Shown here piece after piece: positions 19,682 through 24,442 of a stretch of DNA of 36,121 nucleotides (its first letter is position 1; every line of letters begins with the position of its first letter). Origin of the DNA: Desulfosporosinus sp. Its GTDB lineage: Bacteria > Campylobacterota > Campylobacteria > Campylobacterales > Arcobacteraceae. Both the position numbers and the translations under genes were made by a program. The notes under the pieces are model-generated. The model had not been told where the DNA came from. It did not search any database and worked only from the letters and a program-made list of their open reading frames with translations. Location of the stretch: NCBI GenBank assembly GCA_020719775.1, contig DYPS01000021.1, positions 1-36,121 of the forward strand. The letters run 5' to 3'.

Positions 19682-20866
19682 TTACAATAAGTAACTAGCT
19701 CTAGTATTTATAAAATTGGATATTAAAAATCTTTTTAAACTTTTTTTTAATTCTTTTTTAGGTAATGCAATATTGAGTCTAAAAAAGTATTTTCCACTTT
19801 TTCCAAAGCTTATTCCATCATTTAAAACAACTTTTATACCATATAAAAGTTCCTCTTTTATTTTGTTATGTTTCATTCCAGTTTCTCGGAAATCAAGCCA
19901 CAAAAGATAAGTTGCTTCACTTTTGATAATTTTTATAGAAGGAAGATTTTTGGCAAAAAATTCCTCTGTAAAATATATATTCTTTTGTAAATAGACTAAT
20001 AGTTCCTCAAGCCAAATTATCCCCTCTTGACTATAACAACTCTCAATAATTGTATTTGAAAAGGAATTCAAAGAAATAATATGATGTTTGATAGCATTTA
20101 TTTTGAATTGCTCCATTATCTCTTTATCAAGTGAAAAAGCATATGATGTATTAAATCCTGCCACATTAAAAGTTTTACTTGGGGCACTTAAAATAAGCGA
20201 AGATGGATTGATAGTGGCAAATGAAGTAAACTTTGAAAAGACCAAATCACTATGAATCTCATCAGATACTACTAAAATATTATGTTTTCTACAAATCTCA
20301 TTTAATTTTCTAAGCTCCTCTTCACTCCAAATTCTTCCGACTGGATTGTGCGGGGAACAAAGAAGTAAGATTTTTGTTTTGGGTGTAATTTTGGAATTAA
20401 AACCATCAAAATCTATCTCATATTTTCCCTTTTTTAAAACAAGATTACTTTCGACTAAGATTCTATTGCTCTCTTTAATCACATTCGAAAATGGGAAATA
20501 AACAGGTGGAAAAACTACCACCTCATCACCAATCTCACTAAACGACTCAATCGCTACTCCAAGTGATGGAACAACCCCAGAACAAATGAGAATATCCTCT
20601 TTTTTGAGTTTTAAATCGTGTCTTTTTTGCCAATTAATGATAGCTTCAAAAGCTTTTTCTGAGGGATTCTCATAACCAAATATTTGTTGTTTTAATTTTT
20701 TTTCAATAGCTCTTTGAACAAAATTTGGAGTTGCGAAATCCATATCGGCAACCCATAAAGGTTTCGCATCTGTAACCCCAAAATAGCTTTGAAGTCCATC
20801 ATACTTAACAGAATTTGTTCCTAACCTATTGATATGTTTATCAAAATTGATAGATTTTTGTTTCAT
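19682..20866 (-). CDS. ovoB: OvoB: PLP-dependent 5-histidylcysteine sulfoxide lyase
   Basis: Fold type I PLP enzyme of the PatB/MalY beta C-S lyase group. Seen: RLGTNSVKYD (14-23), PLWVADMDF (36-44), CSPHNPVGRIW (170-180), SDEIHSDL (201-208) and the PLP lysine K231 in SAPSKTFN. MalY-type enzymes cleave cystathionine; OvoB cleaves the sulfoxide made by OvoA to 5-thiohistidine. The OvoB call rests on context: the ATG at 20866 shares its A with the stop of ovoA (TAATG), so the two are made together. GGGAAA upstream supports this ATG over an in-frame TTG at 20878. The alternative is a plain cystathionine beta-lyase. The 394 residues are normal for the family. Confidence 0.82.
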   Translation of the reverse strand: MKQKSINFDKHINRLGTNSVKYDGLQSYFGVTDAKPLWVADMDFATPNFVQRAIEKKLKQQIFGYENPSEKAFEAIINWQKRHDLKLKKEDILICSGVVPSLGVAIESFSEIGDEVVVFPPVYFPFSNVIKESNRILVESNLVLKKGKYEIDFDGFNSKITPKTKILLLCSPHNPVGRIWSEEELRKLNEICRKHNILVVSDEIHSDLVFSKFTSFATINPSSLILSAPSKTFNVAGFNTSYAFSLDKEIMEQFKINAIKHHIISLNSFSNTIIESCYSQEGIIWLEELLVYLQKNIYFTEEFFAKNLPSIKIIKSEATYLLWLDFRETGMKHNKIKEELLYGIKVVLNDGISFGKSGKYFFRLNIALPKKELKKSLKRFLISNFINTRASYLL

Positions 20867-22737
20867 TATTTTTCCCAAATAGTAAAAAACTCTGTTTCAT
20901 CGATAAGCTTTAAAGAAAATACTAAACTCTCTTTAAATTGCTCTTTTTGGACAAAGTTTTTAAAAGCAACTACAACTCTTCCACCGCTATTTAATCTCTT
21001 TGGTAAATCTTCTAGTAGATGTTTTATATTGTAAATCTCTTCAAAATTATTTGTTAGTAGTATAAAATCATATCCACTAAAATGTGACTTTAAATTACAA
21101 CTATCCCCTTGCCAAAATGCGATATTTTTATGATGCTGTAACTCCAAATTTTTTTGTGCTATCAAAATATTTCTTGCTGTAAAATCTATTCCAATGATAT
21201 TCTCAAAATAACTTGCAAGTTCAAATAGACTTTTTCCATAATCACATCCAAGATTGAGTGCACTTTTGAAATCATCTTTGATATATTTTTTAGCGATATG
21301 TGCGACTCTATCAAAAAACTCCACTTCCCTAAAATTTATCTCCTCTTTGACAACTTCAATATCCTCTTTGTGGTCACTTGAAACTTCCACATATCTAAAT
21401 CCAGCATGTTGAAAAAAGTGTCTTCTAAAAGCATATCGTGAGCTTAAAAGTGCTTCATTTCCTGTACTTATAAATGAACAACCCTTGATAATATTATGCC
21501 TTCTATTGAAAGTTGGAACTGAAAAATCATCATACACAGGATGAATCTCAAATCCAGTAAACCCATCAATCGTTGTGATTGTCCATTGCCAAACATTCCC
21601 AATCACATCATAAAAATCCCCATGTTTAAATTCATTTACAGGGCAAGGGGAACAGTAATGTTCCAAATTGATATTTGCAGGAGCAAGTTCTCCCCACTGT
21701 GGTTCATCCAAAAGTCCACTCACTTCATGAAGTCTGTACCACATTGCTTCACTTGGCAGGGTTATCTTTTTTCCTATTTTGGATGATTTCCATTTGCAAA
21801 ATGCCAAAGCTTCAAGATAGTTCACCTCAACTGGCCAATTAAGTGGAAGTGGGATAATAGTTTGCAGTGTTCTGAAATAGTAACTATCTTTTTTTAAAAT
21901 CCAAAAAGTGGGATGAAGCACTTTTATATAATTTCTCCATCTAAGCCCCTCATTATCCCAAAAAGAATCATTTTGGTATCCACCATCCTCTATAAATTCT
22001 AAAAATTCCCCATTGGATGTGAGATATTTTGAAGCATTGAAATCATCAACTACAAAAGTAGCCTCTCCATATTCATTATCCCAGCCATAAAAATCATCAT
22101 CCTTACTTTTTCCAAGTGTTATTTTTCCGCCAGAGACCTTTAAAAGTTCGTTTTCTAAAGTTTTGCCATAATTTTGTGATTCATTAAAAAATAGATTTTG
22201 TTTGATAAACTTTATCTCAAGTTGTCTATGAAGTACCGAAGATGTTTCAAGATGGATTCTTTCGTGTTCTATCCCCATCATCACTATCCACATAGGACTT
22301 TCCCAAGTTATCGGAAGTGAAAATGAAACTTTCTCTATAAAATCTAAAACAACCTCTTTTACCATTAACCGATAGCTTCTCACATCCTCCACTTTTGGCC
22401 AAAAGTAGTTTGATTGATTGAGGTCATCCCAACTCATCTCATCCACCCCAATAGCAAAAACAGACTCAAAATGGGGATTGATTCTCTCTTGTAAAAATCC
22501 ACCAAGAATCAATTTATTAATATAAAAAGTGGCCGTATGTCCAAAATAAAAAATAAGTGGGTGTCGTAATTTTTCAGGTTGTTCGTAAAAAACTTTATCA
22601 TCTGTAAAAATAGTAAAAAGCTCTTCAAAAAGAGTATAAGTTTTTAAAAAATACCCTTTGATTTCAGCTCTTTTAGCTTTCACATCATCTCCTCTAAGAG
22701 AGATATTTCTAGTGATAAACTCTTTTTTGTCTAACAT
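20866..22737 (-). CDS. ovoA: OvoA: 5-histidylcysteine sulfoxide synthase/methyltransferase
   Basis: Iron enzyme joining cysteine to C5 of histidine with O2, plus a SAM domain that N-methylates 5-thiohistidine, giving ovothiol A. The DinB-like N-terminal domain (about 15-175) supplies the iron ligands H67 (FGH) and HERIHLE with H158 and H162. The formylglycine-generating-enzyme fold (about 200-455) has GNVWQWT (380-386) and FRRHFFQHAGFRYV (437-450). The methyltransferase (about 465-623) has ALNLGCDYGKS (493-503), GID (516-518) and QGDSCNLK (543-550). The fusion and opening RNISLRGDD separate it from EgtB of ergothioneine synthesis. At 623 residues it is shorter than the roughly 700 usual, because the methyltransferase is compact. 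It begins four bases after proS. Confidence 0.93.
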   Translation of the reverse strand: MLDKKEFITRNISLRGDDVKAKRAEIKGYFLKTYTLFEELFTIFTDDKVFYEQPEKLRHPLIFYFGHTATFYINKLILGGFLQERINPHFESVFAIGVDEMSWDDLNQSNYFWPKVEDVRSYRLMVKEVVLDFIEKVSFSLPITWESPMWIVMMGIEHERIHLETSSVLHRQLEIKFIKQNLFFNESQNYGKTLENELLKVSGGKITLGKSKDDDFYGWDNEYGEATFVVDDFNASKYLTSNGEFLEFIEDGGYQNDSFWDNEGLRWRNYIKVLHPTFWILKKDSYYFRTLQTIIPLPLNWPVEVNYLEALAFCKWKSSKIGKKITLPSEAMWYRLHEVSGLLDEPQWGELAPANINLEHYCSPCPVNEFKHGDFYDVIGNVWQWTITTIDGFTGFEIHPVYDDFSVPTFNRRHNIIKGCSFISTGNEALLSSRYAFRRHFFQHAGFRYVEVSSDHKEDIEVVKEEINFREVEFFDRVAHIAKKYIKDDFKSALNLGCDYGKSLFELASYFENIIGIDFTARNILIAQKNLELQHHKNIAFWQGDSCNLKSHFSGYDFILLTNNFEEIYNIKHLLEDLPKRLNSGGRVVVAFKNFVQKEQFKESLVFSLKLIDETEFFTIWEK

Positions 22738-22741
22738 TTTG

Positions 22742-24442
22742 TTATTTGTTTTTTAAAACTTCCACAATATTTTCTAATGGAATATCCTCTTTCTCACCAG
22801 TTCTTCTACAGACAAGTTCCACTAAACCTTCACTCAATTTTTTCCCAATAACAACCGCATAAGGGAATCCAATAAGTTCAAAATCACTCATTTTAAATCC
22901 AAATCGCTCTTTTACCCTATCGTCCATAATCACTTCAACCCCAGCTGATCTCAAATCTTCATAGATTCTAGTTCCAGCTGCCATCTCATCTTCATTTTTC
23001 CCATTTGAGATAATGATATCTACAAAAAATGGTGTTGTTTCTTTTGTCCATACACACCCTCTGTCATCGTGACTTTGCTCAATTACAGCTGCTACGAGTC
23101 TACTTACTCCGATTCCATAAGTTCCCATCTCAAATGATTTACTTTTTCCATTATTATCTAAAAAGTTTGCCCCTAGTGCTTTTGAATACTTATCTCCAAG
23201 TTGGAAAATATGCCCAACCTCTATCCCTTTTGTGTAGCTTAGTTTTCCACCACAACACTCACAAATATCACCCTCCGAGACGGCCACTAAATCAAAATAA
23301 ACATCTTCACTCAAACAACAAACATCAACACCAGCTAGATGATAATGTTCCTCATTTGCTCCGCAAACCATATCATTTTCATCTCTCAGTTCGCTATCTA
23401 TTTTGAAAATCACATTTGCAGGTAAATCTTTAATTCCAACATAACCAGCCACAAGTCCAGCTGAGTTTATCTCCTCTTCGCTAATATCCGCTAATTCCAA
23501 AGCATTTATACTATTGCAAGCTTTTGTCTCCTCAAGCTCATCGTCCCCTCGTACAAAAAATACAGCTACTTTTTCACACTCTTCATAGACTGCTTTTTTG
23601 ATAACTGCTTTGATTGTTTGAGATCTATTTATCTCCAAAAAGTTTGAAACTTCCTCTATCGTTTTTGTATTTGGTGTGTGGATTTTTCCACTTGTGAGGC
23701 TTTTTTTCTCTTCTATTTGTCGTGGCACTCTTTTTGCCGCTTCAATATTTGCTCCATAGTTACAGCTATCGCATACAACAATCGTATCCTCTCCACTATT
23801 TGCTAGTACATGAAACTCTTTACTTCCTGTCCCACCAATCGCTCCACTATCAGCATCTACGATTCTAAAATCAAGCCCAAGTCTTGCAAAGATTTTTTTG
23901 TAAGTCTCTTCCATAAGATGAAATTCTCTTTTCATATCTTCACTATTAGCATGAAAAGAGTAACCATCTTTCATCAAAAACTCTCTCCCCCTCATAAGAC
24001 CGAATCGTGGTCGTGCTTCATCTCTAAATTTTGTATTTATTTGGTATAAGTTAATTGGTAAATCTTTGTAGCTTGTCACTCTATTTTTGACCAATTCTAC
24101 CATCGCCTCTTCATTTGTAGGGCTTAAGACAAAACCATTGTTTTTTCTATCTTTGATTCTAAGCATTTCAAGTCCCATTTTAGAAGCTCGTCCACTATTT
24201 TCCCAAAATTCAATTGGAGTTACAAATGAAAGTTGCACCTCCTGAGCTCCACTATTATCAAGCTCCTCCTTTACTACATTTCGTATCTTATCAAGGACAA
24301 TTTTCCCTAACGGCAAATAATTATAAAGTCCACTTCCACTTGTATTAATAAAACCTGCTCGAAGTAAAAATTGATGCGATGGTAAAGTCGCATCGTTTGG
24401 AGTTTCTTTTGTTGTTGGTATAAAAAGTTTTGAGAATTTCAT
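22742..24442 (-). CDS. proS: Prolyl-tRNA synthetase, bacterial type with editing domain
   Basis: Charges tRNA-Pro with proline. Class II motif 1 includes [16 protein letters not shown] (about 32-47), motif 2 [25 protein letters not shown] (about 138-162) and motif 3 [19 protein letters not shown]. The YbaK-like editing insertion runs roughly from 255 to 385 ([12 protein letters not shown] to [10 protein letters not shown]), with KAVIKK and GD retained. The length of 566 is standard. It starts one base after hemA ends and precedes ovoA by four bases, so hemA-proS-ovoA-ovoB looks like one transcript. Confidence 0.96.

Follow-up and report, generated by a model that had tools for sequence, protein, structure and literature searches.

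The locus described here raises the question whether a genome that carries an ovoA-ovoB gene pair also makes ovothiol A. The pair lies in the window, that is, the whole stretch of 36,121 nucleotides that we analysed, which comes from contig C56 of a 2.85 Mb Arcobacteraceae assembly comprised of 228 contigs. A first-pass annotation had placed the genome in Campylobacterota, which is supported by the assignment to Arcobacteraceae from its named relatives, and had described two coupled open reading frames between positions 19682 and 22737, where we find them as well. The features are the following.

22742..24442, minus strand: proS (NCBIfam PRK09194, 734.9 bits), 4 bases upstream of ovoA
20866..22737, minus strand: ovoA, short form, 623 amino acids (open reading frame; TIGR04344, 657.7 bits; best solved match OvoA_Th2, 8khq)
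21388..22707, minus strand: DinB and FGE sulfoxide synthase domain of OvoA, residues 11-450 (positions 2-444 of 444 of the TIGR04344 profile)
20869..21387, minus strand: remodelled, shortened methyltransferase domain of OvoA, residues 451-623 (TIGR04345, 99.8 bits in two pieces; alignment; AF2 model)
19682..20866, minus strand: ovoB-like gene for a PatB-family C-S lyase, 394 amino acids, PLP lysine K231 (TIGR04350, 429.6 bits, cut-off 340)

The junction between ovoA and the lyase gene reads ...GGGAAAAATAATGAAAC. As annotated, the ovoA stop codon TAA and the lyase ATG both fall within TAATG, the A being common to both. The pair comes after hemA and proS on the same strand, at spacings of 1 and 4 bases; therefore, it probably rides on a housekeeping operon. 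It is likely that proS and ovoA are co-transcribed, with proS standing outside the pathway. In relatives, the pair occupies differing neighbourhoods, and ovoA-ovoB alone is shared throughout. Comparison of the neighbourhoods of the relatives' loci yielded no conserved third pathway gene, and no gene recognisable as an acetyltransferase lay next to the ovoA-lyase pair. The OvoA-OvoB pair is ordinary in the phylum, as OvoA exceeds the cut-off in 79 of the 104 genomes from Arcobacteraceae and, across the class, in 119 of 397.

Both proteins match their families far above chance (E of 8.5e-198 for OvoA and 9.7e-129 for the lyase), with DinB_2, FGE-sulfatase, and methyltransferase domains in OvoA and an Aminotran_1_2 domain in the lyase. 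Residues 1-450 of OvoA score 657.7 bits against TIGR04344 (cut-off 400) over the full model length, compared with 158.2 bits against the EgtB model (cut-off 360) and 142.1 bits against the SenA model (cut-off 420); confusion with EgtB, which the first-pass annotation had singled out for checking, is thus settled in favour of OvoA. The putative iron ligands H67, H158, and H162 had been numbered correctly and are invariant among 25 aligned OvoAs. Family membership identifies the N-terminal domain as a true 5-histidylcysteine sulfoxide synthase. The best solved match (47% identity, structural alignment) is the bifunctional OvoA_Th2, whose source organism we take to be Hydrogenimonas thermophila. 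Like the window OvoA, it has a collinear DinB/FGE domain, the same three histidines, and the methyltransferase in the same place. By contrast, the window methyltransferase is ∼80 residues shorter than that of OvoA_Th2 and lacks three conserved segments.

The lyase carries its PLP lysine, K231, within SAPSK, in agreement with the annotated motif, and is of the PatB type and coupled to ovoA. The OvoB of Erwinia tasmaniensis, to which we liken it by description, is likewise a PLP-dependent protein of the PatB/MalY type (PMC9103826). As the closest solved relative is the PatB cystathionine beta-lyase 6qp3, it is the coupling to ovoA alone that points to 5-histidylcysteine sulfoxide as the substrate. 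The PatB family is broad in substrate, and with such a match the protein could be a housekeeping cystathionine beta-lyase that neighbours ovoA by chance. We consider this very unlikely, given that the overlap with ovoA recurs at each of the 11 loci of the group with short or absent methyltransferases, in differing neighbourhoods, and also in several further families of the class, and that no other PatB-family member exceeds the cut-off in the genome. The annotation had itself named grouping with housekeeping cystathionine lyases as a possible objection; the lyase being the sole PatB protein over the cut-off speaks against it, although sequence alone cannot separate a sulfoxide lyase from a cystathionine lyase.

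The methyltransferase part of OvoA has a feature absent from the first-pass annotation: it is ∼80 residues shorter than in standard OvoAs. The DinB/FGE and fused methyltransferase domains listed there are all present, but the methyltransferase reaches only 99.8 bits, in two pieces, against TIGR04345 (cut-off 170). In the alignment with standard OvoAs, three stretches are missing, namely the lid that precedes motif I, ∼30 residues that follow motif II, and, at the C-terminus, the segments SPYTWxEE...WLGG and FVIRETxRKxQHT. Among 61 positions conserved across the sequences of the three solved thiohistidine/selenohistidine methyltransferases (OvoM, OvsM, and OvoA_Th2) and eight standard rows, the window domain keeps 20, mostly in the SAM core, changes 23, and deletes 18. 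The conserved segments outside the SAM site (lid, SPYTWxEExT..WLGG, FVIRETxRKxQHT) are thus not retained, with 41 of the 61 positions changed or deleted, and we infer that the lost positions would take part in binding the 5-thiohistidine acceptor. The predicted SAM-binding positions G497, C498, G501, D518, and D545 are conserved, and a Rossmann core is recognised by motifs, AF2 model, and fold.

Four substitutions are fixed: D495N, S520T, F523N, and R567E are N/T/N/E in all ten short domains and D/S/F/R in all eight standard ones. D495N affects the motif I aspartate, and R567E lies in the NLIDRLY motif. The AF2 model of the short domain is a compact minimal Rossmann methyltransferase (pLDDT 89.5, pTM 0.84). 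Its best structural matches include OvoA_Th2, OvoM, and OvsM, but many class I methyltransferases follow at near-equal Z (VIA-align), so that the acceptor cannot be read from the fold alone. That an unrelated methyltransferase took the place of the original one is ruled out, as the FWQGDxCNLKPxFxGYD region and the fold indicate descent from OvoA.

The short domain was remodelled once in this lineage, from an ovothiol N-pi-methyltransferase, and is under purifying selection. In the tree, the short domains of ten Arcobacteraceae OvoAs form one clade with support of 100/100 and a long stem. Within the window's own genus, pairwise dN/dS is 0.07-0.24 in the short domain versus 0.10-0.22 in the synthase; together with the fixed substitutions, this rules out decay of the domain. 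A sequencing error or frameshift is ruled out as well, since the short form is found in nine other OvoAs from related genomes. A common origin with the truncations in G273, G408, G310, G428, and G443 is unsupported, as these lack T520/N523/E567 and fall outside the clade.

A fused methyltransferase over the TIGR04345 cut-off is present in 68 Arcobacteraceae genomes (including G096, where it is split between two contigs), none of which has a second copy. Eleven genomes of the family have a short or absent fused domain, and three of these (G043, G076, and G084) encode a full standalone OvoM. The difference, 3/11 versus 0/68, gives a Fisher p of 0.002, which overstates independence because the genomes counted are related. 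The OvoMs of the short-OvoA genomes G084 and G076 cluster in the tree with standard Arcobacteraceae methyltransferases and not with the short domains. In the wider class, G453 and G272, whose OvoAs lack the methyltransferase, each also have a full OvoM. This pattern is as expected if the short domain does not perform the job of OvoM. We found no replacement standalone OvoM in the window's genome or in its five short-OvoA congeners; with 228 contigs one could have been overlooked, but the five OvoM-less congeners make this unlikely. Nor does the window's genome contain a classical glutathione synthetase over the cut-off (best 71 bits, cut-off 299).

The annotation had concluded that the two genes together encode all known steps to ovothiol A. 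This is unsupported, as the fused domain falls below the TIGR04345 cut-off, most conserved non-SAM positions are lost, and the genome search turned up no standalone OvoM. On balance, we favour the reading that the pair leads to 5-thiohistidine and that the fused SAM-binding domain has an altered job, with most likely no ovothiol A being formed. We infer every catalytic step from the sequences: the DinB/FGE domain of OvoA, with its three-histidine iron site, would use O2 to join cysteine to C5 of histidine as a sulfoxide, which the PLP lyase coupled to it (OvoB) would then split into 5-thiohistidine, pyruvate, and ammonia. The product of ovoA and the lyase gene is most likely 5-thiohistidine, and the pathway probably does not end in ovothiol A made in the usual way. 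The short domain keeps the predicted SAM core, and ovothiol A is most likely no longer made because three parts are lost: the lid at its N-terminal side, the insert that follows motif II, and the C-terminal FVIRETxRKxQHT segment. As the domain is under selection with fixed residues of its own, it probably acts on a different acceptor or at a different position, or has a SAM-sensing role. More tentatively, it might be a novel enzyme that depends on SAM and modifies a different position of 5-thiohistidine, or of a partner; if so, the product of these bacteria would be a so far undescribed 5-thiohistidine derivative.

Since the predicted SAM core is intact, a reduced yet working enzyme has to be considered, in which the acceptor pocket of the short domain would be smaller or open, the domain would still be the ovothiol N-pi-methyltransferase, and the pair would make ovothiol A. 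The fusion is retained in ten OvoAs, the five SAM-binding positions are conserved, the domain is under purifying selection, and the methyltransferases of OvoA and OvoM are the nearest by sequence and fold. Still, we regard this as unlikely: most family-wide non-SAM positions are gone, the entire FVIRETxRKxQHT segment among them, the NLIDRLY motif is altered by R567E, and a full OvoM accompanies the short form in two genera but is absent from every Arcobacteraceae genome whose fused domain is full. Another alternative is that the domain is a catalytically inert remnant, retained because it helps the synthase to fold or keeps its dimer stable. It has been wholly lost in G043, of the same genus, and in most of genus g54, with a good synthase score, and the motif I aspartate is now N495. 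This explanation seems improbable, however, as conservation within the domain is highest at the SAM-pocket positions, the new residues are fixed across four genera, and a scaffold would not be expected to retain a SAM site.

The preferred reading, 5-thiohistidine with an altered fused domain, can be compared with known systems. A structure search recovered the standalone 5-thiohistidine N-methyltransferase OvoM of Sulfuricurvum sp. STB_99 (9bxl/9bxm/9bxn), solved with SAM and with 5-thiohistidine, which comes from the same phylum as the window and has a related SAM core. It possesses lid, insert, and FVIRETxRKxQHT, all three of which the window domain lacks. The remark of the first-pass annotation that it knew of no experimental proof of ovothiol in this phylum has to be qualified by these structures and by that of OvoA_Th2, likewise an enzyme of the phylum; on ovothiol in cells of Campylobacterota, our literature search found no paper. 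OvoA-like proteins without a methyltransferase domain have been recorded in a review (PMC9103826), and the gene of the 5-thiohistidine N-acetyltransferase 5THNAT sometimes adjoins such OvoAs (PMC12631010). For these proteins, as for the window OvoA, 5-thiohistidine without N-pi-methylation by OvoA is expected; unlike them, the window OvoA retains a remodelled fused methyltransferase. We found no description of this form in the literature searched, which is thin on the subject, and claim novelty only as a variant.

An ovoA hit is commonly taken as enough to label a genome an ovothiol producer. With an intact synthase joined to an altered methylating part, as in the window, that label can be mistaken across an entire lineage. 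There is precedent for 5-thiohistidines other than ovothiol in the N-acetyltransferase 5THNAT (PMC12631010). The phylum offers a natural series, with the methyltransferase full, remodelled, truncated, absent, or standalone, which is suited to testing the purpose of N-pi-methylation of 5-thiohistidine and to asking if the pathway can end in 5-thiohistidines that are unmethylated or carry other modifications.

Several other variants were observed. In genus g54 (L153-L160), OvoA has no methyltransferase domain and is coupled to OvoB, and six of the eight genomes have no detected OvoM. C-terminal truncations of the OvoA methyltransferase at L161, L162, L163, L164, and L166, in other families of the class, are apparently independent of that in the window, and in L076 and L082 (G013 and G003) the C-terminal end of OvoA is degenerate beyond position 184 of the TIGR04345 profile. 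The OvoAs of genus g41, family f10 (L089, L091-L096, L098-L103, and L105), are ∼697 residues long with a full-length methyltransferase, and have a HESARK...VKSLHVSVWKKK-like sequence in place of the C-terminal FVIRETxRKxQHT, perhaps another change of acceptor. An ovothiol methyltransferase fragment with an internal TAG, resembling a remnant, lies at G158:C1:1074543-1074917, in a genome not listed with OvoA. L002 bears the title Helicobacter pylori PMSS1 and is likely mislabelled, being evidently a metagenome assembly from Arcobacteraceae; its OvoA is 86% identical to that of the window. Finally, in G272 (L124:391-2229) OvoM is fused behind an ADP-ribosylglycohydrolase domain (PF03747), and in G453 (L125) a protein similar to this ADP-ribosylglycohydrolase is encoded directly upstream of a separate OvoM gene.
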